Positions 1 through 36,230 of a DNA stretch of 50,518 bases are shown here, in pieces. The stretch's first letter is position 1; every line of letters starts with the position of its first letter. The DNA is from a virus, in IMG/VR virus record IMGVR_UViG_3300042402_000227, positions 1 through 50,518 of that record; one strand, written 5' to 3'. A model generated the notes under the pieces. That model had not been told where the DNA came from. It saw only the letters and a program-made list of their open reading frames with translations, and searched no databases. Made by a program: the position numbers and the translations under genes.

Positions 1-705
1 GACGCTTAAGTTGGTATTATATCTGATTTTTATATTAGTTTTACCCATGTCTATCAATAGTTGCAAGAATTCATAATGTTCTTCTTGCATCATGGGCTCG
101 CCACCGCTAAAATGTATCTCTGTATATTCATCACACATATTGACCATATCGATGAGATCAGTAGTCATATGCGGTATCTTGGTATTAGTCAATAAACTGG
201 CTTTGACGGGTAATCCCATCTTCATCACTTCTACTGCCCAACTTGTGCTAAGACCCGGGCCGCAACTACGGCATTTGAAGTTGCATAGGCTATTAAAGAT
301 GATATCTATAGTGGCTAACTTTATTCCGGCTACGCTCCCATCACTATTAGTGTATTTTACTATATCTTTATACTTGTCATAGTTATTATGATTGGTATGA
401 TCGGGAAATTGACTATAGCGTTTATTGAAAATCATACGCATACTATCGATACCGCTATCTTCTTCTTTCCAGCATCGTGTACAAGCGTCTGGTTTTTTAC
501 CTTCTAAGAAATCTTTTCGTAACTGGTTCCACTTATCGTTGTGGAATATATCTACTATCTTACTCTCGTTCCAGTTACCTAATTTATGCCTATAATCATG
601 ACTATAGTAACAACAAGGCATCACCTTGCCATCAGGCTCGGTATGAATCTGCAACCAAGGAACACTACAAAAATGCTCAGGAAATTTGTCGTTTTCTAAT
701 GCCAT
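1..705 (-). CDS. Radical SAM protein, type B N-terminus (partial, 3' end outside window)
   Basis: Reading from an ATG at 705 leftward gives 235 open codons that run off the window edge. The radical SAM cluster-binding motif CNFKCRSC (C141, C145, C148) and the SAM-binding motif SGGEP (about 200-204) are both present. The first 80 residues carry C13 (CSVPW), the pair C31-C32 and C75/C78 (CTRCW), a Cys pattern expected to bind an auxiliary Fe-S cluster, as in the N-terminal twitch-type radical SAM proteins of phages. It is the sixth and last visible member of the array; its ATG lies 6 nt after the upstream stop, so it is probably co-translated. The family generates a 5'-deoxyadenosyl radical to modify a substrate; which substrate is not visible here. 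The C-terminal half is missing. Confidence 0.88.
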   Translation of the reverse strand, partial: MALENDKFPEHFCSVPWLQIHTEPDGKVMPCCYYSHDYRHKLGNWNESKIVDIFHNDKWNQLRKDFLEGKKPDACTRCWKEEDSGIDSMRMIFNKRYSQFPDHTNHNNYDKYKDIVKYTNSDGSVAGIKLATIDIIFNSLCNFKCRSCGPGLSTSWAVEVMKMGLPVKASLLTNTKIPHMTTDLIDMVNMCDEYTEIHFSGGEPMMQEEHYEFLQLLIDMGKTNIKIRYNTNLSV

Positions 706-711
706 GATGTA

Positions 712-2004
712 TTAGTAAATCCATCCATCAAGTTCGGGGAACACATTAGTGAAGTTTCTATCTCTACGATTGTCATACTCAGTAGTGAACTTCTTGAACT
801 GGTCTGTTCTCCATTCACGCTCAGTATCATTCATAGTTGACTTACGGGCTTTCCAGAAATCATAGACCATAGCCCATGTTTCTTTCTCTACGCTCTTGAT
901 CAAACTATCATTTTCTTTCATGAAGTTATTTGTATCTTCAAAATAACTATCAGCACTATCAGGTAATATACGCAAGTCAAACTGTTTAGGATCTACTAAT
1001 CGTGCGCAATTAAACATGATGTCAATACCATCTTTGCGGAACTCAATAACTTTCTTAATAAATGTCTTAAAGTTGAAAACGCTCAACAATCCAAATGTGA
1101 CCATGATACGAATAGGTACATGGAATGTTGTGCTGACTTTGCGAACAGTATCTTCCCACTGTGCTACATCTAGACCATCACGGATATACTCTGCTTGTGG
1201 TCCCCATGTATCCATGCTTGTATATACTTCAAGACCCTTGATAGTTTTAGCATTCAATAATGTCGTAGCCTTCTCAAAGAACATCTTTAGATTCTTCTCA
1301 GGTACGCATAAGTTGGTGTTGATAACTAATGTCAAGTTAGGATTGTGGTTCTGTGCTACGAAATCTAATAGTTTCATGAAGTTGCGTGTGGCGAGTGGTT
1401 CACCACCGGTGATTCTTAGATAACGCAAATCTTTGTATGCGTCGGGTAACCACTTCCAGAATGCATCGATATATGGGTTATCATCTTCTGGCAACATGTC
1501 GTGCATCTTGTCTTTATGCACAGTAGGATCTTCGATAGGATAACTACCGAATTTACGAACTTCATGCTCCCATCGTGAACTCTGTCCCGGACTGCAATAA
1601 CTACATGCAAAGTTACAAGTGTTTGCGAAACTAATCTCTAAGTAGCTAGGATTGATCGGCTTGTCATAAGGTGCATTCAATATTTCTGCTCTGCGCTCAA
1701 TAGCCCAGGACTCGTTAGTAAAACGCTTTCTATCGCTGATGACATCGGGGTTAATCGCTTCCATGTCAAAACAGTAGTAGCACTCTTTAGGCTTCTCACC
1801 ATTCATCATCTGACGGCGTTGCTCAATCTTATGTCCAGTATTATGTAATGCTGAAGGGTCTTTGTCAGTCTCTTCACGCTTCCAACGATGTATCGGTGGA
1901 TGATAACAACTGTGGTTCTCGCCCATACCGAAATGCATAGTGACCATAAGCCATTTTGCCGCACAAAAACTGTTTTGAATCTTAATTGGAATTTCTACAC
2001 TCAT
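712..2004 (-). CDS. Radical SAM protein, type A N-terminus
   Basis: A 430-aa radical SAM enzyme. The core motif CNFACSYC supplies C130, C134 and C137 for the 4Fe-4S cluster, and TGGEP (about 199-203) is the SAM-binding strand. The N-terminus has the type A signature shared with two neighbours: CAAKW (C14), SCYHPP (C33) and ECYYC (C75/C78), then SDR, which I read as an auxiliary-cluster twitch domain. The C-terminus ends with an RR..NF..FPEL motif, also conserved in the other type A members. The start at 2004 overlaps the previous stop by 4 nt (ATGA) and is preceded by AGGTGA. The reaction is unknown; peptide or glycan modification is possible but not shown. Confidence 0.9.
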   Translation of the reverse strand: MSVEIPIKIQNSFCAAKWLMVTMHFGMGENHSCYHPPIHRWKREETDKDPSALHNTGHKIEQRRQMMNGEKPKECYYCFDMEAINPDVISDRKRFTNESWAIERRAEILNAPYDKPINPSYLEISFANTCNFACSYCSPGQSSRWEHEVRKFGSYPIEDPTVHKDKMHDMLPEDDNPYIDAFWKWLPDAYKDLRYLRITGGEPLATRNFMKLLDFVAQNHNPNLTLVINTNLCVPEKNLKMFFEKATTLLNAKTIKGLEVYTSMDTWGPQAEYIRDGLDVAQWEDTVRKVSTTFHVPIRIMVTFGLLSVFNFKTFIKKVIEFRKDGIDIMFNCARLVDPKQFDLRILPDSADSYFEDTNNFMKENDSLIKSVEKETWAMVYDFWKARKSTMNDTEREWRTDQFKKFTTEYDNRRDRNFTNVFPELDGWIY

Positions 2005-3179
2005 AATATTTCACCTAATTCTGGTATATAATCTTTGTAACTTAAAGTTCTTGCCTTGTCTACTGCGTTGATGAACTGACTTGCCTTCGTCAATAACTTG
2101 GGATCATGCTCTATCATTAATTTAGCATACAATTCATTACGCTGCCATTCATGCAATTTATCTTTATAATAATCCCTGATCTTGTCTTTATAACTCTCAG
2201 GTAATGCGGCGAGACTTAGATAGTCTGGATACAATACATAATTGTGATGAGGTATCTTGTTATAATTTGTTTCTAGCCAAGTATTTAACACATCCAAATT
2301 CAATATGTTTAGTATGCTTACAGTCTGTGTGACATGCCAATATACATTATCTACTTTGTTTAATTTCTCTATGCTAGTGACAGTTTCATCCCATTGTGTA
2401 GGATATCTGATATAATAGTTTCTAATATCGTAATCATCGATGCTTGCATTGACTGTGACTTTCATGAATGACTTCCACAATTCTATCAGATTATCAGGAA
2501 TGTCCATCATGTTTAGGCTATATACAAGATGTACTTTTTGTGCTGTACCATTATCGATTAGATTTTGCAGATAGCGGAAGTGTGCTTTGATCAATGTGGG
2601 TTCACCACCATTGATGTATATTTCTTCTACACCTTCGCTATACTTTGTCAACTCGTCATAGAACTCTGGATCTTCGAACCACTTAAAGTTCTCTACGGGT
2701 CTTAGAACGAACCAAGGTAAGTCTTTGCTTATTTTCTTTTCGTCTGGATACCATTTGCTACTACTATAACTGTTACAAGTCAAGCAGGCATTATTACACA
2801 CATTGCCTAAACGCAATTCGATATAACGATAATTAGGTCTCTTGATGAAAGATGTTTTCTCAAGTTGATCTATGATGTGTGCCCAGCGTTTGTTTTCGTA
2901 CTGTCTTTTGCTTTCTAGTCCTGCATCTTCATCACGCCAGCATCCTTCACATTCGATAGGGCGTCTGCCGTCGATCATATCTTGTCTTACTTTGATAAAC
3001 TTATCGCTGTTGATGACATCATCGAGGCTGTCATTATCTAATGTAACAAGGCTGTTAGTACCTTGTTTCTTAGCCCAACTAACTGCATCATTATGATTGC
3101 TACGGCAACAAAGGCTGACACCACCGTTAGGGTGTGTCGCTAGATGCATCCAAGGTAGCACACATAATGTTTTACTCAT
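2001..3179 (-). CDS. Radical SAM protein, type B N-terminus
   Basis: A 392-aa radical SAM enzyme with the motif CNNACLTC (C128, C132, C135) and NGGEPT (about 190-195). The N-terminus has the type B pattern: CVLPW (C6), a C24-C25 pair, then G-R-R-P and CEGCW (C77/C80), likely ligands of an auxiliary Fe-S cluster. The C-terminus closes with an IPEL motif reminiscent of the FPEL ending of type A members. It is the shortest complete member of the array. Both ends overlap neighbours by an ATGA, so it belongs to the same translationally coupled chain. The substrate is unknown. Confidence 0.9.
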   Translation of the reverse strand: MSKTLCVLPWMHLATHPNGGVSLCCRSNHNDAVSWAKKQGTNSLVTLDNDSLDDVINSDKFIKVRQDMIDGRRPIECEGCWRDEDAGLESKRQYENKRWAHIIDQLEKTSFIKRPNYRYIELRLGNVCNNACLTCNSYSSSKWYPDEKKISKDLPWFVLRPVENFKWFEDPEFYDELTKYSEGVEEIYINGGEPTLIKAHFRYLQNLIDNGTAQKVHLVYSLNMMDIPDNLIELWKSFMKVTVNASIDDYDIRNYYIRYPTQWDETVTSIEKLNKVDNVYWHVTQTVSILNILNLDVLNTWLETNYNKIPHHNYVLYPDYLSLAALPESYKDKIRDYYKDKLHEWQRNELYAKLMIEHDPKLLTKASQFINAVDKARTLSYKDYIPELGEIL

Positions 3180-4573
3180 ATCTTATCCCACCATTCTAAC
3201 AATTTAGGATGACGGCTATAGATATCACGCAATGTTAATTTAGCCTCGCGTATCTGTTCTAGTCTATGAACCCAACCTTTACCGTTCTTAGCTGCCTGGC
3301 GGAATGTGTCGGGCCATTCTTCTTCGTGTGTTTTTCTAGTATATTTCAATGCTTCTAAGTTAGCGATCAAAGTACCATGACGCCATTCATCTGCTTTAGG
3401 TCTGATATAATCAAGTATATCATCGCATACTTCATTCAGTACTTCTCTAGGCCAACTAGTTGGACTCCACATGATGTCAGGATGGAACGCGAATGTGATC
3501 TTTGTCTCAATCTTTACGCCCAACTCATTACTCAAATCAAACAAATCTTTCAATGCGAACATACCGGGTGCTGTGATAGTCAAATCTAATACCATCTTTT
3601 GTCTGCCACCGGGCAATTCACAACCACGCTTGAAGTTTTCTAACCAACGATCCCACTTGATACCTGTGCGTATATATTCAACGATTTCACCCGTGCCGTC
3701 AATACTTGCGCACATCATCCAATCTTTGAAATGCGGTAGATAATCAAATAAGTTCTTATCACCAAATTGAACGCGGCTTAAGTTACTATTGTATCGCATG
3801 AAACAATTCTTTGCGCTACCATTCTTTAACATTTCTTCCAATGTCCACCAATGCACATCATACATCAATGGCTCGCCACCTACCCAGTACATTTCTTCAA
3901 CGATACCGCGACTTACTGCATCACGAAACTCTGGCTCGACAACCTCAGTCTGGAACTTCTCCATAGCAGTCTTGATCTCTGGGACCATGAATGGTTGATT
4001 CTTGGGAGTCCACATATTGTTGATCTTCTTTTCAGATTCCCATGAACTGCTTAACTGCTCACCGCACATGCGGCATTTGAAATTACATAGATTGCTGAAA
4101 CGGTAATCGAATGATATAGGTTCCATAGTGGTATGACCTGTATCATCGGTCTTGTCGAATGCCTCTTGTATCTTATGCTTGAATAGTGTGCCTGTGAACC
4201 ATCCGCGATAACTGTGACCTTCCATCAATAGATTCTTGTTACAGACATCGCATTGTGGAATCTCTTCTCCGCGCATTAACTTTACACGGATATCACGCAT
4301 ATATGGACTGTTCCAATGTTCTTTCAATGACATTGGTCTATATTTGTCTAGTGATGTCTCACTATCCTTTACTGCGCCATAACGCTCATCATTACTGCTG
4401 TCGATATATTGCTTTTGAAAACTATGTTCTTCACGGCTAGCACAACATAATCTGCGTTCGCTTTGTGGACTTATGTATGTGTGCGTCCATGGAGCCATGC
4501 AAAAGACTTTGTTTTCGCTGTCTTTTGCTGGCTTCGCATCATCACCCCATATCGGAATTATCTTATTTGTCAT
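3176..4573 (-). CDS. Radical SAM protein, type B N-terminus
   Basis: A 465-aa radical SAM enzyme. CNFKCRMC gives C163, C167 and C170, and VGGEPL lies at about 231-236. The N-terminal part holds CMAPW (C25), C43-C44 and CDVC (C108/C111), the type B pattern with a longer spacer before the last Cys pair than in its neighbours. The start overlaps the end of the upstream gene by 11 nt and has no clear Shine-Dalgarno of its own, so translation probably depends on coupling. The C-terminus ends in a Trp-rich tail (LLEWWDKI). Phage twitch-type radical SAM proteins of this kind lack an assigned reaction, and nothing in the sequence fixes one. Confidence 0.9.
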   Translation of the reverse strand: MTNKIIPIWGDDAKPAKDSENKVFCMAPWTHTYISPQSERRLCCASREEHSFQKQYIDSSNDERYGAVKDSETSLDKYRPMSLKEHWNSPYMRDIRVKLMRGEEIPQCDVCNKNLLMEGHSYRGWFTGTLFKHKIQEAFDKTDDTGHTTMEPISFDYRFSNLCNFKCRMCGEQLSSSWESEKKINNMWTPKNQPFMVPEIKTAMEKFQTEVVEPEFRDAVSRGIVEEMYWVGGEPLMYDVHWWTLEEMLKNGSAKNCFMRYNSNLSRVQFGDKNLFDYLPHFKDWMMCASIDGTGEIVEYIRTGIKWDRWLENFKRGCELPGGRQKMVLDLTITAPGMFALKDLFDLSNELGVKIETKITFAFHPDIMWSPTSWPREVLNEVCDDILDYIRPKADEWRHGTLIANLEALKYTRKTHEEEWPDTFRQAAKNGKGWVHRLEQIREAKLTLRDIYSRHPKLLEWWDKI

Positions 4574-6104
4574 TTTCTAAGTCAGGGTTGACGAACACTT
4601 CCTTGCTAGGATCTTCAGGTGGATGCTCTGGTACTAAGTCCATACCTTCACGATAGTTACCTGTGATGATCTCTGCACTAGTAGGTACTTCAGTATCGAT
4701 ACTGTCGAACCAATCAACGAATTCCTGGGGGAAAGTCTCACGGAAATTCTTTGCACGGCGTACATCATACTGACTATAGAACTGTTTGAAGTCTCGTTTA
4801 TTCTGCTCAGGATCCTTCACATTCTTGTGAGGAGTCTTGATGACGTCAAGATAGTCAATCAATCTTTGAGTCTGCTCACGCTCAATAGCAGTCAACAATG
4901 GTTCACCGTTTGTAGTCTTCTCGTTGAGATGAACATAATGATTCAACCAATGTTGTAATTTTTCGCTATACTTCTGACGAATCTCCATAGGCAACATCGC
5001 GCAACTCTGGAAACTTGGGAAACGCAAGATGTTCAATGACATAGTTGGATATGTAGAATCATGCTTACGCTTGAAGTTCATGATCTCTGTCATGAATTCT
5101 GTGATGCTCGACAAGCAGAGGCTATTGATAGTCATCATGATATGTGTGCGCTTGACATTGCCTTCTGTGTGCAATCTTTCTAGGTTGCGCAACCATATAT
5201 CCCAATTGAATCCATCGCGGATATACTCAGCATGTTTGCCGGTCGCTTCACAGCTAGTATAAACTTCTAGCCAAGGAACATAATGGCTCAATTCGATAAA
5301 ACGATCCATGATGTCATCTTTAGGTACGAGGTTACTATTGATAGCATAACGCATGACCTTGCCGTCTGGACGATTCTTTACACGCTCTTGATTTGCTTTG
5401 AACCATTCGAACAACTTCCATACACCGGCAGCCATTAATGGCTCACCGCCAGTGATACGAATCTCTTCTAGGTTATCAGCAAGACCATTCTCTTGTTCCC
5501 ACCAGCGCCAGAACGCTTGTGTGTATGGGTTCACATCATCAGGCAGTGGCTTGGCATGATCTGCTTTGTTGATGAAGTGACTACGGGCGTCACCGTTGAT
5601 GTTACGATATGGTCCGAACTTGACGATATCCTTTACCCATGTCGTGCTGAAACTTGGATTGCAGTATGAACATGCGAAATTACAAGTTCTATCGAATGCG
5701 ATCTCAAGTGTACGCAACATAGTATTTTCTTGCCAGTCTGCTTTGGCAGTCTGTGCGATATACTCTTCTTGGTGTACAGCAGTCTTATATACACGGTCTG
5801 AGATAGATCCGCGACCTAGGTCTTCGATCTTCCAACAATATTCACATTCTTGTGGACGAGTACCTTCCTGCATCATTTTACGCATCAATTTCTTGTGCGG
5901 AGTATTATGAATAGCAGTTGGGTTATCTTTCAACTCATTAGCATCGATCTGATGTCCTAATGGGTGGTGACAACTTGCTGTCTGTCCATTGCCTAACCAA
6001 ATAGTAGCGTTTAGCCACTTGGCTGCACAATAACTATCGCTAACGATGTCAATGACTCGCTTCTTATAGTCTGCGTATGTTTCTTCCGGTCTTTTACCTG
6101 CCAT
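4563..6104 (-). CDS. Radical SAM protein, type A N-terminus
   Basis: A 513-aa radical SAM enzyme with CNFACSYC (C141, C145, C148) and TGGEP (about 218-222). Type A N-terminus: CAAKW (C26), SCHHP (C45), an AIHNT..K segment and CEYCW (C87/C90), followed by SDR. Between the core motif and GGEP is a segment with PYTQAFWRWW, matched by PYIDAFWKW and PYVEAFWKWW in the two other type A proteins, so the three are clear paralogues. The RR..NF.ETFP motif is followed by about 45 extra residues rich in Glu, Pro and Asp that the 430-aa paralogue lacks. ATG at 6104 is preceded by a GAGGA ribosome site. Substrate unknown. Confidence 0.9.
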   Translation of the reverse strand: MAGKRPEETYADYKKRVIDIVSDSYCAAKWLNATIWLGNGQTASCHHPLGHQIDANELKDNPTAIHNTPHKKLMRKMMQEGTRPQECEYCWKIEDLGRGSISDRVYKTAVHQEEYIAQTAKADWQENTMLRTLEIAFDRTCNFACSYCNPSFSTTWVKDIVKFGPYRNINGDARSHFINKADHAKPLPDDVNPYTQAFWRWWEQENGLADNLEEIRITGGEPLMAAGVWKLFEWFKANQERVKNRPDGKVMRYAINSNLVPKDDIMDRFIELSHYVPWLEVYTSCEATGKHAEYIRDGFNWDIWLRNLERLHTEGNVKRTHIMMTINSLCLSSITEFMTEIMNFKRKHDSTYPTMSLNILRFPSFQSCAMLPMEIRQKYSEKLQHWLNHYVHLNEKTTNGEPLLTAIEREQTQRLIDYLDVIKTPHKNVKDPEQNKRDFKQFYSQYDVRRAKNFRETFPQEFVDWFDSIDTEVPTSAEIITGNYREGMDLVPEHPPEDPSKEVFVNPDLENDK

Positions 6105-6111
6105 ATTATCC

Positions 6112-7677
6112 TCAATTTTGTGTATATGCTTTCACACACTCTTTCCAATAGTTCTTAAACTCAGGAAAGGTGAGTAAAAAGTTAGTGCCCCGTCTTTTGT
6201 CAAACTCTTTAATGAAAAGATAGAAATTTCTTTTATTTATAGACTTTTGATTTTGGGGTAAAGATTCCTTCATCACAGCCAAATCTCGCTTGACTTTAAG
6301 AATCTCATAGGGCTTGAACCCCTCGAATGTCTCAAGGTAATCATCACCCTGTACATTATCTTCCATGAACTTTAAGCAACGCTCTACTTCTTCTATCTCT
6401 TTCTCCGTCGCATTGGTCACGCTGAACCAAGGAGGGAAACGCAGTATAGGGATGTCAAAGAACACTCTTTGGAACTTCTTTTGTGTGTAAACTTTATGCA
6501 CGATTCCATGCTCTTTTTCTGTTTCAGTTTGCTCGGGCGCTATAGTGAATTCTGTCTGCGCACGACCACCGAATTCACGGCGTAGTTCCAATATCATCTC
6601 TAAGAACTTGTATAGGCTAGGGATGCTCAACAAGTTAAAAGTATTGATGAAACTCACAGTGGTATACTTTGTTTCACGCAAGAAAGTCCTGATATTATTC
6701 AGCATCCTATCAAATTCTAGGCCTGTACGCATATATTCTGCTTGTGGGCCTACACCGTCTAGTGATACGAATAACCAGAAATGCTTGAAGCCTTTGTCTA
6801 CATACCAGTGATTTCCGCTGAACTCATTGAAGTTTTCCTTGTCTTCATATGTACGCAACTCTTCGATAGCCTTGACCTTCTCAAGGAACTTGTCGAATAG
6901 TTTCTGATCGGGCGGGCACATGTTGCTTGTGATGCTCAACTCAAGTTGACCATGTGGATTATTGTTCACATAGTCTAATACCTTGAATGTGTTCTTATCC
7001 ATGAGTGGCTCACCACCTGTCATGCGGAACACACGCAACTTTCTATAGATAGTAGGCCACCATTTCCAGAATGCCTCGACATAAGGATTTTCCTTCTGTG
7101 CTACTCTGATGGGCATGAGTCCCTTTTGTTCTAATGATGGTAGATCATTATGAACATAATTATCTAATACGAATCCGCCATACTTTCGTACTTCTTCTTC
7201 CCATGATGTTGACAAATGTGGGCTACAATACATACACTTGAAATTACATGCTTGATTAAAGTTCACTTCAACATAGCGGGGAGTCACATCATAGTCCCAA
7301 GGATTACCGGTGACTTCATCAAATGTAGGTGCGTTCCACCATTCACTACTGCGATAATGACGATCACTCAAATGTCCTTTGGGGTCTTCACTTTGTGCGT
7401 CTTCTACTCGCCAGCAATATGCGCAGCCATCAGGGCGTTTGCCCTCAATCATCATCTTGCGCTCTGCTATCTTCTGCGGCGTGTTGTGTAGTGCGCTTGG
7501 TTGCTTTTCTAGTAATTCGACAGGTATCTTGTGTGTAGGTGGATGATAACAACTCTGTGTCAATCCTTGCGGTAAGTGTAAACTAACCTGTTGCCATTTT
7601 GCTAGGCATAAAGAAGGACTGACCGCATTTAAGCGGTCTCGCATGTCCCTAGCAAATTGATCGTATTCTCCTGCCAT
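6112..7677 (-). CDS. Radical SAM protein, type A N-terminus (first of the array)
   Basis: A 521-aa radical SAM enzyme, the largest and the promoter-proximal member of the six. CNFKCMYC supplies C144, C148 and C151, and TGGEP lies at about 220-224. Type A N-terminus: CLAKW (C24), SCYHPP (C43), SALHNT and CAYCW (C85/C88), then SDR. It has a longer central insert (about 260-300, Glu/Lys-rich) than its paralogues and ends with RR..NFLLTFPE. The start codon at 7677 shares a base with the preceding stop (TAATG). The family uses SAM and a 4Fe-4S cluster for radical chemistry; the substrate here cannot be inferred from sequence alone. Confidence 0.9.
   Translation of the reverse strand: MAGEYDQFARDMRDRLNAVSPSLCLAKWQQVSLHLPQGLTQSCYHPPTHKIPVELLEKQPSALHNTPQKIAERKMMIEGKRPDGCAYCWRVEDAQSEDPKGHLSDRHYRSSEWWNAPTFDEVTGNPWDYDVTPRYVEVNFNQACNFKCMYCSPHLSTSWEEEVRKYGGFVLDNYVHNDLPSLEQKGLMPIRVAQKENPYVEAFWKWWPTIYRKLRVFRMTGGEPLMDKNTFKVLDYVNNNPHGQLELSITSNMCPPDQKLFDKFLEKVKAIEELRTYEDKENFNEFSGNHWYVDKGFKHFWLFVSLDGVGPQAEYMRTGLEFDRMLNNIRTFLRETKYTTVSFINTFNLLSIPSLYKFLEMILELRREFGGRAQTEFTIAPEQTETEKEHGIVHKVYTQKKFQRVFFDIPILRFPPWFSVTNATEKEIEEVERCLKFMEDNVQGDDYLETFEGFKPYEILKVKRDLAVMKESLPQNQKSINKRNFYLFIKEFDKRRGTNFLLTFPEFKNYWKECVKAYTQN
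6234..6241 (-). promoter_or_regulatory. Possible internal late promoter (TATAAATA)
   Basis: A perfect TATAAATA on the minus strand lies inside the 3' end of the first radical SAM gene, about 130 nt before the next start at 6104. It could give the five downstream radical SAM genes extra late transcription. It is inside coding sequence in an AT-rich genome, so chance is a real alternative. Confidence 0.3.
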
Positions 7678-8630
7678 TACCAGCCTTCGATCCTTCTGAT
7701 CACATCCATCTCTGTGACAAGCGGTCCTAGATTATGCTTATCACTATTATAATGACGCTTGAAGAATTTGCTTTGCTCAGGTGACAATGTACAGATAGGC
7801 AAGCCTAACTTATTTTCTAAGTGCGCGCCTGCATCTTCCATAGCGACTTTAGGATCTTTACCTTCAGCATATTCTTTCCATAACTCAGGATAGTTATCGA
7901 ACCACTGAACATTTGTGTGATCCCATTCACTCAACATAGTTAAGTATGTTCCCAATCTTGCGCCATACATAGCCCAATAACCGTTCTCAACATCACTACC
8001 AACATTCTGCCAGATAGTGAGATTATTCAAGTTTCTGCTAGCCACTGTCTCTTTGAATTCTTCTACTGTAGGTACAGCGCCTTTATTCAAGCACATCTTG
8101 ACACCTTCACGAAAGCCTGCACGCCATGCTTGAAAAGGTGTATAGTTAGGATATGTTGTTGAATAGCAATCATACATAGCCCAATAGAGGCTGTCTTTGC
8201 TATCTAAACAGAAATCAGCGATTCGTGATACATCGCCTTCAGTCTGATGCTCATGTGTCTTCATCTCACGCACATAAGTCTTAGTCCAACTGCTCATGCC
8301 ACCATTGCCATAACGCAGTCCATTGATAGCATTGATCGCTTTCCAGCGAAACTGTGCTAATTTGAATTTAGGATCTTTGTCTGTGAAGTCTAACTGAATG
8401 TTGAAGAAACTCTCGTCAGGCATATTGTCGCCGTCGATCAATATGAATCTTTCTGTGTCGCTTGCTTCACCTGCGGCTTTGTGTGCGGCATCGCTACCCT
8501 TGACACCGTCTACGCGCTTTGCCCAAGGAACCATGTTTTGAATTTGTAGCCAGAATTCTTCTTTCTGTGGCTCATCATAACTTAGGTAAATGCAGTCGAG
8601 TTCTGCAACATCTACAATATCATAACTCAT
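7677..8630 (-). CDS. Glycosyltransferase-like protein with LIDGDN motif
   Basis: A 317-aa protein from ATG at 8630. A longer in-frame start at 8669 would be GTG and lies deeper inside the upstream gene; I prefer 8630 because it is ATG, has GGAAG 10 nt upstream and gives a natural N-terminus (MSYDI..). The segment FILIDGDN (D66-G-D68) preceded by beta strands fits the metal-binding DXD motif of GT-A fold glycosyltransferases, and YLSYDEP near the start fits the nucleotide-sugar strand. Proteins of this type are common in marine phages and are usually annotated only as glycosyltransferase-like. It sits directly before the radical SAM array and overlaps the upstream gene by 11 nt. The sugar and acceptor are unknown. 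Confidence 0.6.
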   Translation of the reverse strand: MSYDIVDVAELDCIYLSYDEPQKEEFWLQIQNMVPWAKRVDGVKGSDAAHKAAGEASDTERFILIDGDNMPDESFFNIQLDFTDKDPKFKLAQFRWKAINAINGLRYGNGGMSSWTKTYVREMKTHEHQTEGDVSRIADFCLDSKDSLYWAMYDCYSTTYPNYTPFQAWRAGFREGVKMCLNKGAVPTVEEFKETVASRNLNNLTIWQNVGSDVENGYWAMYGARLGTYLTMLSEWDHTNVQWFDNYPELWKEYAEGKDPKVAMEDAGAHLENKLGLPICTLSPEQSKFFKRHYNSDKHNLGPLVTEMDVIRRIEGW

Positions 8631-8976
8631 GTGTATGTAACTTCCATTTTTGTTGATCTGCGTAGTCACTATTTACTACCACGCTGACATCTGTTTTTGC
8701 AGTAGGTTGACCTTCATCGTCTGGCTTGAGTTTAGAGTAAGTCATACCTGGAATGATCTTTTTGATCTGACCATCAACTACTTTGATATCGTAGCGCATC
8801 TCGGCAAAAGTATTCTTATCGATTATGATATACTTGCCTTCTGGTTTTTCGCAGGTATAAAAGTCTACACTACCATCGTCTTTGTAGTATAGTCTAAATT
8901 CAACGGGTTCTGGTACAGTCTCTTCAGCCACTAGATATTCTACCCCGTTTATCTCTATTACTTTAAGTCTTTCCAT
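8620..8976 (-). CDS. Small conserved-type phage protein, unknown function
   Basis: A 118-aa protein that I do not recognise beyond its resemblance to small unknown proteins next to glycosyltransferases in marine phages. It begins with a short strand-rich part (VIEINGVEYLV), then EFRLYYKDDG and a CEKPEGKYIIID segment, and looks all-beta with no signal peptide or membrane segment. It overlaps the gene before it by 14 nt and the gene after it by 11 nt, so it is a true member of the operon. It might be an accessory subunit of one of the flanking GT-like enzymes, but that is only a guess from position. Confidence 0.6.
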   Translation of the reverse strand: MERLKVIEINGVEYLVAEETVPEPVEFRLYYKDDGSVDFYTCEKPEGKYIIIDKNTFAEMRYDIKVVDGQIKKIIPGMTYSKLKPDDEGQPTAKTDVSVVVNSDYADQQKWKLHTHEL

Positions 8977-9766
8977 ATACTTTTTCTATTTTACTACAAA
9001 AGTCCTTGATATGATAATGAAAAGGATACATTTGTGGTATAGTATTGACTCTTAGTGTATCAGGTAATATTTCATAGATCAACTCATTAGTCCAATCTTC
9101 GGTCTTGAGATGGTTGATCATCTGTTTCATATGTACCATACTGAATTCGGTAAACATAGGCATCGTTGTTTTCTCTCTGCCTATGATATTGCAAGCGATG
9201 GCATATACCCAATCAGTAGTCGCTTCTTCGTCTACTTTACATTGCAGTAAAGATTTATAATCATCCCAATTCTCAAATATATGTCTGACCAACTTGAAAA
9301 AATATTCAGCAGTTTCGCTTTTCTTGAAATAAGTTATGGCATTGTAGCAATCAGGAAGATTGTTATTGTCGATGAATTTTCTATAATATCTGACATTAGA
9401 TAATTTCTGATTGTAACTTCTGATGTTAGTGCTGACTACCACATCAAGTTGTGAACAAACATCAAAATAATATTCTATATTTTGAGGTATGAATAAGTCT
9501 GCTTCTAATTTGATAGTATGATCATATGGACTGGCTTCATATACTTGCCAGTCGTTTATCAGTTTCCACTTGCTATCTTTTGCTAGATCGCCATATGGTA
9601 ATGCAATAACACTGTCAAAGTAAGGACTCGCTTCTATATCATCTGTAAGTAATGAAACATGCATGTTTGGCATAGTTTTCTTTATGCTTCTTGCCAACAC
9701 TTCTGCGCATTTGATATAATCGACATCAGTGGTGTTTTGTGCTAAGACTAAAAAGCCCTTGTTCAT
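8963..9766 (-). CDS. Glycosyltransferase-like protein (GT-A type)
   Basis: A 267-aa protein from ATG at 9766, which overlaps the upstream stop as ATGA; a frame extending further upstream would lie inside the previous gene and is not needed. The N-terminus (KGFLVLAQN) and SLLTDD at about 38-43 match the nucleotide-sugar binding region of GT-A enzymes, and KLEADLF (E88-A-D90) sits where a DXD motif belongs. It is a paralogue of the gene just upstream: both have YE.SPYD.TI followed at once by the acidic motif. Cytoplasmic, with no membrane segment. Sugar donor and acceptor are not predictable. Confidence 0.65.
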   Translation of the reverse strand: MNKGFLVLAQNTTDVDYIKCAEVLARSIKKTMPNMHVSLLTDDIEASPYFDSVIALPYGDLAKDSKWKLINDWQVYEASPYDHTIKLEADLFIPQNIEYYFDVCSQLDVVVSTNIRSYNQKLSNVRYYRKFIDNNNLPDCYNAITYFKKSETAEYFFKLVRHIFENWDDYKSLLQCKVDEEATTDWVYAIACNIIGREKTTMPMFTEFSMVHMKQMINHLKTEDWTNELIYEILPDTLRVNTIPQMYPFHYHIKDFCSKIEKVYGKT

Positions 9767-10575
9767 TTTGTTAACTCCACAAATATGTCTTTGTTTATCA
9801 CATGGAAGTCCATGTCTTTTAATATGATGTATTCTTTTTTGATCTTGCCGCGCATCCACTTGTCATAAATGACTGTGTATTCTGTGCAAAATTCATCATC
9901 GTTATTTTTATAAACGAATGTCTTGGGACCTATATGTGTAAGATTCCAAGGTATGATATCTGATCTAACATCGCTATGACCATTCACGATCCTGTGTGCT
10001 AATGTCAATCCATAATCGTTGCGGTATGTGTCGCAGGAGAACTTATGTATATTTCCATAATGACGATAGTTCTCTTGAACCATCTTTAAACATTCAAAGA
10101 TGTTTTGTACTCGTTTTGTCTTTTTGAAGCCTACTACTGTAGCCCATAATGCAGGTATCGTCAAATCATTTGAGAAATCTAAATGTTCTTTTTTATCATA
10201 CCCATTCATCAAAAAATTTATTGATTCGTGGCAACAGAAATCATCCATGACATCAAAAACTTTTAATAATGAATCGCTGTTTACTACATAATCCACATCT
10301 AACAATATTGTCTCATCGTATGGGCTAAGTTCATAACTGCGGTAACGACCTTTGTTCAACCATACTCTTCCCTGAAAAGTATTATTGGGATCGCTGTCTA
10401 TCGTATACACATTATCGAATTTATAACCAGTGTTAGTTGCTACAGAATTGTTATCTGTTACTATGCTTACTGGAAGATTGAGGAAGTGGTTCACACGCTT
10501 TGCAGTGAATTCTGCCATGTGATAGTAATTGTATTCTGGAGAATTGAAGGCGAAGAGCAGTACACCTTTAGTCAT
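9763..10575 (-). CDS. Glycosyltransferase-like protein (GT-A type)
   Basis: A 270-aa protein with KGVLLFAFNSPEY at the N-terminus, SIVTD at about 37-41 and LLDVDYVV (D93-V-D95), a good DXD motif for divalent metal and nucleotide-sugar binding. The stretch before it, YELSPYDETI, matches its downstream paralogue. ATG at 10575 overlaps the preceding stop as ATGA. Together with the other two GT-like genes it makes a sugar-handling block at the head of the radical SAM operon; the natural reading is late glycosylation of a virion or cell-surface component, which is inference. Confidence 0.65.
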   Translation of the reverse strand: MTKGVLLFAFNSPEYNYYHMAEFTAKRVNHFLNLPVSIVTDNNSVATNTGYKFDNVYTIDSDPNNTFQGRVWLNKGRYRSYELSPYDETILLDVDYVVNSDSLLKVFDVMDDFCCHESINFLMNGYDKKEHLDFSNDLTIPALWATVVGFKKTKRVQNIFECLKMVQENYRHYGNIHKFSCDTYRNDYGLTLAHRIVNGHSDVRSDIIPWNLTHIGPKTFVYKNNDDEFCTEYTVIYDKWMRGKIKKEYIILKDMDFHVINKDIFVELTK

Positions 10576-10877
10576 CGTTTAGTCTCTGTCTCTTTAAACT
10601 CTTTAAGATATGCTGCCATATTTTCTTGATAAACAGATTTTAGTTTATCTAACAGAGAAAGTCTATCGACTTCTACAGGTCTATTATGCGTGTCTAATAA
10701 TACAACCTTTTCACTATCAAAACTCTGTAAAAAGGTAATGGTCGTGGCGTCTGCTATCCACAAACCATTTTGATCGGCTACTAGAAATTTGTTTTTGTAT
10801 TTTTCCCTAAGGTAATCTTTAGCGGAATTATGTGCGAATCTTGCTTTTGCTTCAGATAGAAGACTTTGGATATCCAT
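10572..10877 (-). CDS. Small unknown protein, first gene of the GT/radical SAM operon
   Basis: A 101-aa protein of unknown function. The N-terminal 30 residues look helical and charged (LLSEAKARF, DYLREKYKNK), followed by a strand-rich part (FLVADQNGLWIAD) and a C-terminal helix rich in Lys and Glu (AAYLKEFKETETKR). No catalytic motif is visible. It is the promoter-proximal gene: its ATG at 10877 has AGAGG upstream and lies about 13 nt downstream of the transcription start predicted from the TATAAATA site. Confidence 0.6.
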   Translation of the reverse strand: MDIQSLLSEAKARFAHNSAKDYLREKYKNKFLVADQNGLWIADATTITFLQSFDSEKVVLLDTHNRPVEVDRLSLLDKLKSVYQENMAAYLKEFKETETKR

Positions 10878-10895: not shown

Positions 10896-10903
10896 TATTT
10901 ATA
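10896..10903 (-). promoter_or_regulatory. Late promoter TATAAATA for the GT/radical SAM operon
   Basis: A perfect T4-type late promoter motif on the minus strand in the short gap between two genes. In T4 the motif spans -13 to -6, so transcription would start near 10890 and give a leader of about 13 nt containing AGAGG before the ATG at 10877. The phage encodes gp55, the factor that reads such sites. This places the whole leftward operon in the late class. Confidence 0.75.
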
Positions 10904-10933: not shown

Positions 10934-11881
10934 TCAGGATACTACGTTAGAGCCGGCTAATGTGATAGTGCCCCAGCTATTTGCAATATTAGTTGTTGAT
11001 GGAGGAACTAAAGTACAAGTGACGCTTGATCCGCTACCTAAAGTACCGTTACCGCTGATCTTGTCGAACAAGCAATGTACTGTAACTACTGAACCGTTGT
11101 CACCATTTGAACCTTGTACACCATTAGTTCTTGCTAGATATTGAATCTGAACAGTAGTAGTGTACGGCGCTGTACCTGAATCTTGGTCAAAGATTGTTGT
11201 GTTTCCAGTGCTTAGTCCGAAATAACCTGAGTTAGTTGAGACTGTTGCTGAACCGCTACCGCCTGTCTTTGTTACACCGGTGTATGATGTACCTGCGATT
11301 GTGCGTGAACCTGAGTTTTGACCGCTAATGTTCAATGTACCACATGCAGTTGCCAATGTATTCATGGCTGCATTGATACCTGCTTCAGTATTTGAGTGTG
11401 AAGCTGAAAACTTCAACTGACCGCCTGCATTAAAGAAATAACGAGCGGCATCACCGTTTGCGAATGTGCAAGTGAATGTGAAGTTCGCATAGTCTGTCCA
11501 TGCTGAAACTGTTGTCTGTGTGTTTGAACTTGTAGTACCTTGAGCAGCGGCGTTGCCTTTGCTTGCCCAAATTGTTTGTAAGTTTGTAGGAATTGCGGCG
11601 ATATAAGTTACTAGACCACCTGCTACCGGAGCAGTTACGCTTGTGATGCTACTGCCTTGGTGTGCCGCGGCGCTTGCTGTGTTGTTTACTAGGCTAGCCC
11701 AACTAGTAGCGGCGACCACTTGACCAGTTGCGACGTTTGCTACAGCAGTCTGACCATACCCGCCCTGACCGCTACCCGTTGCCCAAGTAGCATTCAATGT
11801 ATTAGCAGTACTGGTAGGGTTACCTCCAACCAAGGTGTTAAAGTCTGTTGCTTCAATCAAATTAAATTGTGCGTAGCTCAT
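10934..11881 (-). CDS. Tail fibre or other virion structural protein
   Basis: A 315-aa protein rich in Gly, Ser, Thr and Ala with few charged residues, typical of phage fibres or decoration proteins. The segment ARYFFNAGGQLKFSASH is a motif I associate with phage fibre-type proteins, and the N-terminal part has a GYGQ motif and a WASLVNNT stretch. No enzyme motif or membrane segment is seen. It has its own promoter (GATAAATA at 11910-11917) and an AGGA ribosome site. Possible roles are a distal fibre part or an adhesin; assignment to a particular T4 protein is not possible. Confidence 0.65.
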   Translation of the reverse strand: MSYAQFNLIEATDFNTLVGGNPTSTANTLNATWATGSGQGGYGQTAVANVATGQVVAATSWASLVNNTASAAAHQGSSITSVTAPVAGGLVTYIAAIPTNLQTIWASKGNAAAQGTTSSNTQTTVSAWTDYANFTFTCTFANGDAARYFFNAGGQLKFSASHSNTEAGINAAMNTLATACGTLNISGQNSGSRTIAGTSYTGVTKTGGSGSATVSTNSGYFGLSTGNTTIFDQDSGTAPYTTTVQIQYLARTNGVQGSNGDNGSVVTVHCLFDKISGNGTLGSGSSVTCTLVPPSTTNIANSWGTITLAGSNVVS

Positions 11882-11917: not shown

Positions 11918-12863
11918 TTATTATGACGATTGCTTCGACCTCACCCAAGTCTTGGGTAGCCTTGTCTTCTAGACTTCGTCCTATAGTGTTAAATGCTGTG
12001 GCCTCACCATTTTTAGCTGATCTTGCGGTACCTTCGCCCGCGCTTACTAGACGATCACCCTTGGCTACTGTGCCTATAACTTTGACTTTTACTCGTCCGG
12101 ATACTGCTACAGCAGGGTGTGTCTTATCTGATCCTGCCCCTGCGTTCATGAGATATGCGGCTGTGTTTGATATAACCCCGAACACATCTTCACTTAATTC
12201 ATAGCGTACTGCTCTGATCTCTTTTTGACCGCCCAATTCTACTACTGTACCCGGAGACAATTCTGTTTCTGATTCAAATCTCTCAGCCAAGTCAGCGTAT
12301 GTCGCTTCCATTCTGGAGTTTCCTACTAAAGACCATGTACCTGTGATAGTACCTGCAGTAGTGTTTCCGCCGGTCGTAATCACAGAAGTCAAAACTGTAG
12401 TAGCATTTGCTATCGTGCAATTGATGTTACCTGCGTTGACATTTCCTGATGCTGTAAGACCTACAGTTGCGATATTACCTGAAACAGACAGATTACCGGC
12501 TGCGGACATGTCACCGCCTACCGTCAAGTCTGAACCTATCGATACATTACCGAAACTTGTAGTACCAGTTGAACTAGTTGCAGTCAATACTAACCAGTTG
12601 CTAGTAATTGTTTCGCCATCTGATGGGCATACGCAAAGAGTATTGTTGTTGGTATTAAACCATAACTGACCGCGTATTGGATTTGGGGGAGGGGTGCTGT
12701 CTGCGAAATTCTCTAAGACATGCACGAAATTAGTGTCAAGCACTTGGCCGTATCCTGCGTAGTTACGACCAGGAAGCCCTAAAGAAGTACTTGTTGTGTT
12801 AATTTGTCCGTCAGCGATGGTTGTAAGTACTTGTCCGTCGCTTTTAACAATCGTATATGCCAT
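11913..12863 (-). CDS. Tail fibre-like protein with Gly-rich repeat shaft and conserved C-terminal domain
   Basis: A 316-aa protein. The N-terminal 90 residues (GYGQVLDTNFVHVLENFAD, then PIRGQLWFNT) look like a phage fibre attachment domain. Residues about 105-170 are strand repeats of the type SIGSDLTVGGDMSAAGN and SVSGN, as in a beta-helical shaft. The C-terminal third begins ADLAERFE.ETELSPGTVV and continues DVFGVISNTAAYLMN and SGRVKVKVIG, a domain I have seen at the ends of fibre proteins in marine phages. A possible role is host recognition. It is preceded by its own GATAAATA site and GGAT before the ATG. Confidence 0.7.
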   Translation of the reverse strand: MAYTIVKSDGQVLTTIADGQINTTSTSLGLPGRNYAGYGQVLDTNFVHVLENFADSTPPPNPIRGQLWFNTNNNTLCVCPSDGETITSNWLVLTATSSTGTTSFGNVSIGSDLTVGGDMSAAGNLSVSGNIATVGLTASGNVNAGNINCTIANATTVLTSVITTGGNTTAGTITGTWSLVGNSRMEATYADLAERFESETELSPGTVVELGGQKEIRAVRYELSEDVFGVISNTAAYLMNAGAGSDKTHPAVAVSGRVKVKVIGTVAKGDRLVSAGEGTARSAKNGEATAFNTIGRSLEDKATQDLGEVEAIVIIR

Positions 12864-12883
12864 AGTTTATTATCCGCTAATTT

Positions 12884-12891
12884 TATTTATC
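12884..12891 (-). promoter_or_regulatory. Late promoter GATAAATA
   Basis: GATAAATA on the minus strand ends two bases after the stop of the upstream gene. Predicted transcription start is near 12878, about 15 nt before the ATG at 12863. Same spacing style as the site at 11910-11917. Confidence 0.6.
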
Positions 12892-12892
12892 A

Positions 12893-13507
12893 TCACAAAG
12901 TTATCTGATTTGTGAGGCTTTGTATTCTCACTGTATAGTCAATCTGTATCTGACGGTTCAATGATTTCTGCACTGGGTGGAATATGACATGGGTCAACAA
13001 TCGTGTTATGATGTTTCCATCACTGTCAGTTCCATAATTTGCAAGTAATCCCAATTCGTCAAAAATGTAATCTGAGTCAGTCTGTGTGCTGTTATCGAAT
13101 GCTCCTTGACCTGAAGGCTCACCGTAATCTAACAAACACTGCACTAAGATATCTGTGTACAATCTACCTGAAGTATGATTGACAGTCATCTTGTTTCTTG
13201 TAGGGTCTTGGTTGAAGACGCTGGTATCGTCAACGATCTTAGCATAGGTTTCGTTATAAAGAGCGGCGTTTTGCCCTGTTGTATTGGGCGGCAGATATGT
13301 AATGATACCTGTTTCGTCTACGCTAGCACCACCGTTGCCGAAGGCCATTTGATAAATCTCGCCGAACCCGCGATTGCTAAGTGTGTCGGCAAGAGCCTCA
13401 CTCATATTTTCATAATTGATGGCATTTTTCTTATCTACGAATACTTCCAAACTATTTGGATCATAGATTTTCAAAAATCCCTCAATCTTATAAGATAGTG
13501 TTATCAT
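12893..13507 (-). CDS. Conserved T4-like marine phage structural-type protein
   Basis: A 204-aa protein with no enzyme motif. The N-terminal region FLKIYDPNSLEVFVDKK followed by AINYENMSEALADTL is a module I associate with virion-linked proteins of marine T4-like phages; the middle has a YLPPNT.G...LYNETY segment and the C-terminus TRLLTHVIFHPVQKSLNR. It probably belongs to the tail or baseplate because it is encoded between the giant structural gene and the fibres. The ATG at 13507 shares a base with the stop of the 54-aa ORF before it (TAATG), and AGAGGG about 10 nt upstream is a good ribosome site. Confidence 0.6.
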   Translation of the reverse strand: MITLSYKIEGFLKIYDPNSLEVFVDKKNAINYENMSEALADTLSNRGFGEIYQMAFGNGGASVDETGIITYLPPNTTGQNAALYNETYAKIVDDTSVFNQDPTRNKMTVNHTSGRLYTDILVQCLLDYGEPSGQGAFDNSTQTDSDYIFDELGLLANYGTDSDGNIITRLLTHVIFHPVQKSLNRQIQIDYTVRIQSLTNQITL

Positions 13508-13671
13508 TAATCGTCAGCCCTCTTTTGCACAAAAACTTCCTTTGTGTTAGGATCATAAATCTTTATATGTGACGACAGATAAACCCCGTTATTTTCATTG
13601 GGTTTCTTGGGCTGGATTTCCGGCTTTTTATCGTCTGATTCCGATTTTTTTCCTACAGAATTATTTATCAT
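13507..13671 (-). CDS. 54-aa ORF sharing a motif with the following gene
   Basis: From ATG at 13671, one base after the stop of the giant gene, 54 codons run to a TAA that overlaps the next ATG (TAATG). The first half is Lys/Pro/Glu/Asn-rich and looks disordered (KKSESDDKKPEIQPKKP). The last 20 residues, IKIYDPNTKEVFVQK then RADD, match the N-terminal segment LKIYDPNSLEVFVDK of the next protein. Tight packing at both ends and this similarity support a real gene. It may be a minor structural or linker peptide; function unknown. The codons M-I-N-N are formed by the sequence ATGATAAATAAT, so the start also contains a late-promoter-like string. Confidence 0.6.
   Translation of the reverse strand: MINNSVGKKSESDDKKPEIQPKKPNENNGVYLSSHIKIYDPNTKEVFVQKRADD
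13662..13669 (-). promoter_or_regulatory. GATAAATA at the start of the 54-aa ORF (possible late promoter)
   Basis: The motif overlaps the start codon of the 54-aa ORF. If used, transcription would begin near 13656, inside that ORF, and would serve the following gene at 13507 but not the ORF itself. It may be a coincidence of coding sequence, although the same string heads four other genes. Confidence 0.35.
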
Positions 13672-16600
13672 TTAAGTAACATCCACTTTTAAGAATCTTG
13701 CCCCTGCAGTATCAGCGATCTGCAATGGATCTCCTTGTGTCTCGTTATATATGCCCGGGATAGGGTTCCATACACTAATATAGTTAGATTCTGTCATCTT
13801 GTTGTATTCAAGCAAACCAAACACAGTCGTGTATATCGGTATATTTGGACTGATGATCGATCCTAATACGCCTCTTTGTACGCTTATTATGTTGGCTTCT
13901 TCATCGACATTCAATATCTGCATATATTCACCGTTGACATATAACAATTTACCTTCCAATGAAGTGATGGTTAAATTATCGCCGGTTTCTATCCAGATAC
14001 CTGCTTGTATCGATACGAATGCTCCTTGACCGCTTGAACTCAATATCAGATAATCTTGATCTATATACTGACCCTTAGTGTCGTTATATACCGTGACTTG
14101 TATTAAGTCTAGTCTGTTAGCGATCAACGGTACCTTATGATATCCATATTCTTGAGCAGGAGTTACTGATTCCTGAGTCACAGTATTTGTCAACTTTGAA
14201 GCATCCCCTACTTTTATAGAAGTGCTATATTCACCTACTGCCTCACGCAACCAAGTTCTTGTCTCTGTGTTTGCGCGGTATACATCTGCTTGTCCTGCAA
14301 CATTGACGATCTGTAGATAAGTCTGTTGATCAGGTGTTGATGAAGGCATCATGCTTGTGATGATGACATCATCGCCGGGCAATACTTCAGTCAATATGCA
14401 TACTTCGTTAGCATCATGGAGTTTTAGATTACTGCTTGCAACGCGCTTGCCGTTAACAGTTACCCACAATCTGTCAACATTAGTCTGCTCCCACTGTGTG
14501 ACCTTGATGTTCAAACCACTTTGTACTGACAATGTTTTTGTGACACCGTTTCTAGTCTCAGAGATGCTAAACTTATCATCGAGGCTATCGATCTCAACAA
14601 CCTGTTTGATATAATACTTCTGACCAGCAATGATTTGCGGTATGTTTGTTGGCTTACCAAGATCGATACCATCTTCTGTGAAGTATACCGGAGTGCCTTC
14701 TACTAATCCTGTCACTTTACCAACTGTTATGAACTCGCTATCGCTGGCAGTTGCTGTCTTATTGTACAACACATAACTTTGATGTAATGAAACATAACCG
14801 CCACTCACATAAGTGTTGACATCAGTTAATGGAACTGATGCAGTATATGGTACATCTGCGATATACTCGTACAATGCAAATTCGTTAGGACCTAATACAT
14901 TGATAGTAAACATTTGACCGTTCAACTGTACAGAACCCTGAACTCCTTCGATTCTCACTACATCGTTATCTGATAAGTTGTGAGGTATGCTTGTAGTTAC
15001 TGTTGCAGGTATCACTACATTATTGACATATGATATAGGTGATACTTGTTGTCCTGTATATTCATTAGTAAACAAGTATTGTCTTTCTGTATCATTGTAA
15101 GTAGTCACAGCGATAGTATCTGATATACTTGGAGCCAATGAATTGAACACCAATGTTGATGTTGTATAGTTTACATTATATTCTGTAGGACTTCTTCTTT
15201 CGCCATTTACTTCAACGATAGCATTTTGCGGATTATCGCCTTCTAGATTATTGACTAATGTGTATGGTCCAACTGTACCATTACCTAAGAACTGCTGTGT
15301 CTGAGGTACTGCATATCCATACTGTACAGGTTGTGTCTCACCAAAGAATGAATATGAGATATAATCTGTCTCTGGATCATAATGATCTGCAAATACGATC
15401 TTAGCATTGATCTGATTATCAGCAGGCATAGCCGCATAGTCTTGTGTGACGAATACTGCTGTTCCTGTAGCACCTGTCAATGTCACAGGATTACCAAACT
15501 GATCCTTGATAGTGAATGTAGTTGGTGACAACACTTGATCGATATAATAACTTGTCAATGGAGTGATATCCCCGAATATAGTATCGCTGAAAGTGACTCT
15601 TTGATCAGATGCTAAACCAACTGTGCTGAATACTGTGACGGAGTTATTGACTGCGCTAGTAGCGATAACATAGTTCGCTAATCCAGGTACTAACTTCTGT
15701 CCGTTATAGAATACTGCTGGTTCTGTATAAAACACACCATCAGTATCAACTTGTACGATACCACCACCGTTGTAATCTAAATTAGTATAATTGCAATCAA
15801 GTGAAATCTCATCAAAACCTGTAGTTGTATTGATCTCTATAGGATCGTTGTCAGTATTTGATTTGACTAACTGATCGCCATTGCCGATCTCGTAAACATC
15901 TATGCGTAATTGCTGTCCTGATGTCAATGGATTGATCAATGTGACAGTCTTGTTATACCAGTTAACTGTATAATCATTGTTTTCATATAGTGTCACGCTC
16001 AAGCCGTCTATCAACAAGAACACATTGATCTGCGCAGGAGTCTGCGTGGCAGAACTGAAATCATATTCGTTTGATGTTTCTAAATCTAATTCAAGTGATA
16101 CAACTTTATAACCAACATGTGCATATTCACTTGCTGGCCAGTTAGTGCCAGGTCTTGTGTTTACAGTCATCACTAATTGATCTGATACGATGCCAGGAAC
16201 CATTTCTTCTGGACCATAACCGAACATGAATGGATCACCTTGTACAACATATTCACTCTGTCTTTCTTGGAACACATTAGTGTTGCTCCAATATACGGGA
16301 GTACTTGCTATATCGCCGGTCTGCAATACTGTGTTATTATCTCCGACTATAGTATATTCATTCTTTTCTTGTACATATATCACGCTGTTCAAGTTTTCTG
16401 TTACACCAGTGGTTACAGTCGTGAAGTTTAATCCATCACTTGATCTCTTTACGACACCGTTGTTTCCTGCAAGAACTAATACACCGTTTGCAAAGTATAC
16501 ATCATTGTAAACTATACCTGTCTCTGTTATGTCAGTCCAAGTAGTACCATTAGTACTATAAGAGATTATCTGGTTACCTACAGCATAGATTCTACCAAAC

Positions 16601-32322: not shown

Positions 32323-32323
32323 T

Positions 32324-35707: not shown

Positions 35708-35726
35708 AATTACTCTCTGATTTGAT

Positions 35727-35734
35727 TATTTATC
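35727..35734 (-). promoter_or_regulatory. Late promoter GATAAATA for gp6
   Basis: Minus-strand GATAAATA in the 53-nt gap between gp25 and gp6. Predicted transcription start is near 35721, leaving about 14 nt of leader with GAGAG before the ATG at 35707. The same gap holds a short AAAAC/GTTTT inverted repeat with a CACG loop just after the gp25 stop, too weak to call a terminator. Confidence 0.65.
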
Positions 35735-35760
35735 AAATCCTAAAACCGTGGTTTTTAAGA

Positions 35761-36210: not shown

Positions 36211-36215
36211 AATTA

Positions 36216-36223: not shown

Positions 36224-36230
36224 GTTTAAA

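Follow-up and report, generated by a model that had tools for sequence, protein, structure and literature searches.

An ordered array of radical SAM genes behind glycosyltransferase-like genes in uncultured phages: a candidate pathway of stepwise glycan editing

SPASM- and twitch-type radical S-adenosylmethionine (SAM) enzymes are, to our knowledge, known mostly singly or a few at a time. BtrN is an aminocyclitol dehydrogenase with a C-terminal twitch domain; NeoN and AviX12 are radical SAM epimerases of oligosaccharides, and in some radical SAM epimerases a cysteine serves as hydrogen donor. The present analysis concerns an array of radical SAM genes in a viral DNA stretch of 50,518 bp (virus record IMGVR_UViG_3300042402_000227; this whole stretch is called the window below). 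The array forms the end of a fixed module with the order small gene, GT8-like gene, GT8-like gene, small gene, GT-A-like gene, radical SAM array, in which GT stands for glycosyltransferase. An earlier, sequence-only reading of the window had placed the number of radical SAM copies far above the single ones usual in phages; it is not unprecedented, a T4-like marine genome with 12 such genes (TARA_ERS488813_N000010) having been noted in 2017 (Nishimura 2017, PMC5332604). The same kind of region is found in the host-recognition cluster of pelagimyophages, where radical SAM cassettes occur with GT8 genes (Zaragoza-Solas 2020, PMC7029224). These genomes, which were compared by description only, share with the window the presence of many radical SAM genes in T4-like marine phages; they differ in that the conserved module, the gene order, the orthogroups and a mechanism are not described in the available parts of the two papers. 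No prior description of the module, the order or the cysteine pattern was found in open-licence PubMed Central (PMC) papers. The enzyme family and its multi-copy occurrence were already known; module, order and cysteine pattern are new as far as could be found.

All six open reading frames of the array in the window (minus strand, Table 1) contain CxxxCxxC and GGEP, as had been read from the sequence, and all were assigned to the NCBIfam family NF033640 (N_Twi_rSAM, radical SAM with N-terminal twitch) with scores of 209-341 bits (curated cut-off 170 bits). The N-termini of types A and B agree with that reading, as does the C-terminal RR..NF..FP motif of type A. The suggested leftward extension was confirmed with a second record (IMGVR_UViG_3300044617_000226, referred to as G001), which covers the whole window at 99.7% identity and adds 28.5 kb on the left. 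The array of G001 comprises eight contiguous radical SAM genes (25339-36186), each above the cut-off, the three full genes at its left end scoring 244-353 bits; the gene of orthogroup I, truncated at the window edge, is complete there (27904-29214, 436 aa). Past the eight follow two SGNH-like genes, a weaker radical SAM protein, a third SGNH-like gene and a carbamoyltransferase gene. The eight members have the domain order and cysteines of NF033640, a model that names no substrate; the locus differs in presenting ordered arrays of distinct paralogues behind GT-like genes. Up to 17-20 family matches (E≤0.001) were counted per related record. In the window, neighbouring members of the array either overlap (4-11 bp) or have gaps of 6-7 bp between them, and 234 of 249 adjacent same-strand radical SAM pairs in related contigs are spaced by -60 to +20 bp, a 4-bp overlap (-4) being commonest.

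The genes upstream of the array, whose association with it the sequence-only reading had missed, were characterised by profile and structure comparisons. The profile of the GT8-like family (A3) matches glycogenin (E 3e-5) across the N-terminal 115 positions, and in its DxD motif D95 is invariant and D93 nearly so; the gathering score of PF01501 was not reached, and the frames at 8963-9859 and 9763-10575 are without a Pfam match over threshold. The GT-A-like family occurs in 67 loci, usually one gene ahead of radical SAM orthogroup B. The best Foldseek matches of its model (predicted template modelling score, pTM, 0.82) are GT-A enzymes (E 2e-4, TM only about 0.3), and a sequence search of the PDB with the family profile returned chance matches only. 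In order to avoid the bias of a radical SAM query, viral contigs were also searched with the GT-A-like family alone, and 80 loci were kept. GT8-like genes were found upstream in 80/80 of these, and an N-twitch radical SAM gene was found no more than three genes downstream in 73 of the 74 loci with enough sequence. The small genes among the GT-like genes were checked as to a precursor of ribosomally synthesised and post-translationally modified peptides and fall into no known family (Pfam, PHROG): the first module gene has no PHROG match, and the 118-aa protein, which is replaced by a 201-aa protein (cluster 4) in 47 other loci, belongs to no Pfam family. Just ahead of the module lies a fibre-like protein without a PHROG match, whose family has a median Ser+Thr+Asn content of 33% (18% for all genes); that it serves as an acceptor is conjecture.

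A viral-contig search with one array member gave 220 relatives, of which 80 were kept; conservation was determined on 513 full-length proteins from related records (283 non-redundant viral relatives). The four N-terminal and the three core (CxxxCxxC) cysteines are 98-100% conserved among the 283 sequences, and GGE, one Asn, two Ser and one Arg are conserved as well. Array paralogues are old, because they are only 20-33% identical to each other; orthologues share about 50-98%, and these two ranges rule out a recent tandem duplication of the window array. The orthogroup order B, A, C, D (letters independent of the type letters) is kept in most related contigs (dozens), and E, I, F and G come after it in the relatives of the window, with other members or unrelated genes interspersed. 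For the five full window genes, ratios of nonsynonymous to synonymous substitution (dN/dS) against near relatives were 0.02-0.08 wherever computable, silent sites being saturated in more distant pairs. The array paralogues are thus under strong purifying selection, and decaying genes are ruled out. Scattered or degraded genes and lost cluster cysteines had been named as signs against a joint pathway; these points were checked, and the outcome supports such a pathway. Outside the B-A-C-D core, orthogroups H, I, F, G, K, L, M, S, O and others vary in presence between related contigs, as would be expected if the paralogues did not act in sequence but were alternatives by which the product is varied from one phage strain to another; given that the core order is kept in most contigs and that each of the five full genes is under strong constraint, this explanation appears quite unlikely.

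In the phylogenetic tree (FastTree, long branches), type A forms a supported, virus-dominated clade and type B is scattered among bacterial lineages. The two alternating paralogue types of the sequence-only reading hold in part: type A stands as a clade, two clean types are ruled out by the scatter of type B, and the order of types (A,A,B,B,A,B in the window, then B,A leftward in G001) is not strictly alternating. Mantel tests of co-inheritance gave r 0.78-0.94, which fits joint descent but also whole-genome vertical inheritance, and were not used as support.

The AlphaFold model of orthogroup D is a radical SAM barrel (predicted local distance difference test, pLDDT, 93; pTM 0.89), to which anSME, CteB, SkfB, BlsE and MoaA, and also SuiB, have the nearest folds. 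The N-terminal domain gave a profile match to the auxiliary-cluster domain of BtrN and has a similar ligand spacing (CX18CX52CX2C). The twitch domain is C-terminal in BtrN and N-terminal in the array enzymes, which fall outside the BtrN-type dehydrogenases as a family. Orthogroups B, D and F carry the cluster cysteines only (exactly seven invariant cysteines in the 37 non-redundant sequences of B), although in type B members one of the positions is a CC pair. One further invariant cysteine is present in each of A, C, E, I and G, at differing putative active-site positions: C330 of A (49/49 non-redundant sequences), C288 of C (30/30), C333 of E (8/8), C316 of I and C230 of G, the invariance in E, I and G being based on only 7-8 sequences. 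In the model of D, prepared without SAM, the extra cysteines of A, C, E, I and G correspond to positions 291, 244, 312, 303 and 225, and most of them lie in or shortly after strands 4-7, in the second half of the barrel. If NeoN and AviX12, with an extra active-site cysteine as hydrogen donor, are taken as the model for these five, two kinds of step, oxidation and inversion, may be distinguished.

We incline, with modest confidence, to the reading that the module builds a glycan that is then edited stepwise by the radical SAM enzymes. A short sugar chain would be made by the two GT8-like and the one GT-A-like glycosyltransferase, and the array would form the tailoring end of a late-expressed phage glycan pathway, the N-twitch series editing single sugar carbons one after another. 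By cleaving SAM, each enzyme would generate a 5'-deoxyadenosyl radical, and this radical would abstract one hydrogen from a C-H bond. In B, D and F, with their seven cluster cysteines, an electron would pass to the N-terminal auxiliary cluster and an alcohol would be converted into a ketone, as by BtrN; in A, C, E, I and G the extra cysteine would give back a hydrogen from the opposite face and so invert the stereocentre, as in radical SAM epimerases. A stepwise pathway is favoured because the gene order is conserved, the paralogues are ancient and individually constrained, the frames are coupled and five members have differing extra cysteines. To this extent the stepwise pathway proposed in the sequence-only reading is partly supported, one common substrate for all members being a possibility.

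The genes found between or after the radical SAM genes in related contigs bear on the nature of the substrate. They encode UDP-sugar dehydrogenase, NeuB, SDR, DegT and class I aminotransferases, cupin, C-methyltransferase, class II aldolase, carbamoyltransferase, GDSL-type proteins and SAM synthetase, and are, judged from sequence, sugar-tailoring enzymes, which had likewise been overlooked. The variable dehydrogenase, aminotransferase, carbamoyl-, sulfo- and methyltransferases and SGNH proteins would add further decorations. In nine related contigs (L061 8277-9377 and eight further loci) the array region includes a SAM synthetase gene, as if meeting the demand for SAM. The GT module and the sugar-tailoring insertions together argue for a glycan as the substrate rather than for side chains of virion proteins. 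Modification of peptide side chains of virion proteins, in the manner of sactipeptide or sulfatase maturases and with the GT-like genes acting on the same proteins, is the main alternative, and we consider it unlikely. The nearest solved folds (anSME, CteB, SkfB, SuiB), the place of the module behind tail-fibre-type genes, and the fusion of TPR domains to N-twitch enzymes in an Elusimicrobia genome, which suggests a protein partner, speak for it; no small conserved precursor-like gene was found within the array in the window or G001, and the inserted genes are of the sugar kind. Four points weigh against glycan editing: the top structural neighbours of the D model (anSME, CteB, SkfB) modify peptides; the division into epimerases and dehydrogenases is drawn from cysteine conservation alone; the fold match behind the GT-A assignment is weak (TM about 0.3), the other basis being acidic residues that are invariant; and the module was not found in any phage isolate (50,697 records).

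The octamer TATAAATA, which we take to be the T4 late promoter octamer, is present in three copies in the window, all on the minus strand; besides the one at the head of the module (Table 1), a copy is located 5 bp ahead of a baseplate gene (35761-36210). Over the window as a whole it shows no enrichment, and a scan for sigma-70 promoters gave no excess over shuffles; the case for its function is made by position and by conservation across loci. In 67/114 related loci the motif [TAC]TAAATA occurs no more than 60 nt ahead of the first module gene; the corresponding counts elsewhere are 1/248 for GT8-like, 29/135 for GT-A-like and 31/582 for radical SAM genes. This maximum before the first module gene argues that the module is probably one late transcription unit, with a possible second start ahead of the GT-A-like gene in some related loci. 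In L077, L062, L051 and L060 the TAAATA motif ahead of the first module gene is immediately preceded by a terminator-like stem (GCCAGTT...AACTGGC TTTTTT), which suggests a sharp operon border in these four loci. The minus-strand gene order in the window is baseplate genes (32324-44057), a gene for a 6,216-aa protein, fibre-like genes and the array.

The edited glycan would probably be displayed on virion tail fibres or on the host envelope; virion display is somewhat favoured by the late position, and a change of the host surface by the contexts in bacteria and in Vibrio phage K566. In the latter case the same glycan chemistry would be directed at host lipopolysaccharide or capsule and would block other phages or the adsorption of progeny, a sub-case to which we assign a lesser share of the favoured explanation. 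In favour of this target, bacterial relatives sit within surface-polysaccharide loci, the lipid A gene PagP lies near the cluster in K566, and such a role was proposed for pelagimyophage glycosyltransferases by Zaragoza-Solas et al. (PMC7029224); the late-promoter-type motif and the place behind tail genes suit virion decoration better, and the module of the window contains no recognisable genes for a lipid carrier or for export. A pathway towards a small molecule or towards hypermodified bases in the phage DNA appears very improbable. Radical SAM and sugar genes are, as general knowledge, found in pathways of both kinds, and in G001 a gene resembling thymidylate synthase is present about 24 kb to the left of the array; the late position adjoining tail genes does not fit, and no nucleotide-specific enzyme was seen within the module.

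Bacterial relatives were sought by genome scans. Nothing was found with D alone, an alignment of all six window members was too diverse for searching, and an alignment of D with other type B members yielded 212 stretches, mainly from metagenome-assembled genomes (MAGs) of Bdellovibrionota, Elusimicrobia and Acidobacteria and from a few isolates. Their neighbours include genes for GT2, carbamoyltransferase, GDSL, NDP-hexose 2,3-dehydratase and FdtA; an ABC-2 transporter, sugar epimerases and DegT are the neighbours in one of the genomes. These are putative surface-polysaccharide loci. The GT-A-like family is found near N-twitch genes on two Bdellovibrionota-type contigs (937 kb and 328 kb), and in one locus (L144) such a pair is adjoined by two flagellin genes. 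MAG contigs L137, L138, L146, L166 and L168, which carry the full module, are probably phage contigs binned with bacteria. Elusimicrobia MAG G028 (L192, L162, L184, L185; 2.9-Mb genome) contains at least 78 N-twitch family matches; many of them are fusions with long TPR arrays and stand, as recent duplicates, in tandem rows that overlap. For these TPR-fused arrays recent tandem duplication does fit the tree. About 13-15 N-twitch radical SAM genes lie within 30 kb of a bacterial chromosome contig, with unknown genes interspersed, in Bdellovibrionia MAG G026 (C1:745513-774880, L280-L281).

Close relatives of B, A and D were not found in phage isolates apart from one partial match on an unannotated single-cell contig, and none of the GT-A-like protein was found. 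A divergent version is present in the sequenced Vibrio phages K566 and K567. K566 (L288, OZ196521.1 155934-174884) has four N-twitch family members, two over and two below the NF033640 cut-off. They are accompanied by two Pfam GT8 genes and a GT4-like gene, and PagP is close by; neither the GT-A-like gene nor the first small gene is present in the stretch examined. K566 is a possible laboratory model, and the genes are modular and testable singly.

Widespread uncultured water-borne phages carry three GT-type genes followed by a row of 8 to 12 different radical SAM enzymes in conserved order, a set that most likely serves to make a sugar chain late in infection and then to modify it chemically. 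These old, individually constrained paralogues stand in a row, with their setting fixed, across a large group of viral contigs for which no close cultured relative was found, and the family expands to tens of copies in Bdellovibrionota and one Elusimicrobia genome. More tentatively, and on balance doubtful, the array may be a radical assembly line, one enzyme per step and in fixed order, which works along a phage-made virion glycan and alters, carbon by carbon, its stereochemistry and oxidation state, related chemistry being used in surface-polysaccharide loci of predatory and other uncultured bacteria; a simple chain would then become a sugar structure that the host does not make. Should glycan editing be true, these genes would represent a large and unexplored group of sugar-modifying enzymes and would add a new layer to the surface biology of phage and host.

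Table 1. Features of the module and its surroundings in the window (all on the minus strand).
Feature	Position	Strand	Remarks
Radical SAM orthogroup I (type B), piece at window edge	1..705	minus	NF033640 209 bits
Radical SAM orthogroup E (type A)	712..2004	minus	NF033640 295 bits; extra invariant C333
Radical SAM orthogroup D (type B)	2001..3179	minus	NF033640 341 bits
Radical SAM orthogroup C (type B)	3176..4573	minus	NF033640 312 bits; extra invariant C288
Radical SAM orthogroup A (type A)	4563..6104	minus	NF033640 296 bits; extra invariant C330
Radical SAM orthogroup B (type A)	6112..7677	minus	NF033640 289 bits
GT-A-like protein, 317 aa from ATG	7677..8630	minus	invariant D66 and D68 (DGDN)
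Small conserved protein, 118 aa	8620..8976	minus	cluster 14, 13 loci
Second GT8-like putative glycosyltransferase, 267 aa from ATG	8963..9766	minus	same family as 9763..10575
GT8-like putative glycosyltransferase, 270 aa	9763..10575	minus	family profile A3 against glycogenin 3e-5
First module gene, 101 aa, conserved	10572..10877	minus	cluster 2, 58 loci
Late-promoter-type octamer TATAAATA	10896..10903	minus	18 bp ahead of start codon of first module gene; consensus match
Ser/Thr/Asn-rich fibre-like protein, just upstream of module	10934..11881	minus	family in 52 loci

Further genes were observed at a distance from the module. On the plus strand of the window, a sulfotransferase-domain gene (46160-46834) is located between two recombination-type genes that resemble gp47 (45147-46163) and gp46 (46819-48594); after these comes a SPASM-type radical SAM gene of another family (48591-49604). 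On the minus strand of G001, a SAM decarboxylase gene (PF02675, 13607-13981) adjoins another radical SAM gene (12574-13605). The minus-strand gene at 13995-20141 of G001 (L088/L089) encodes a protein of 2,048 aa. Its aromatic FDFSW-type repeats number about 20 and are mostly spaced 64-68 aa from each other, and its C-terminal domain belongs to the GT-A-like family (75 bits) but has lost the acidic DGD motif; relatives of 1,357-2,248 aa are present on four other contigs.

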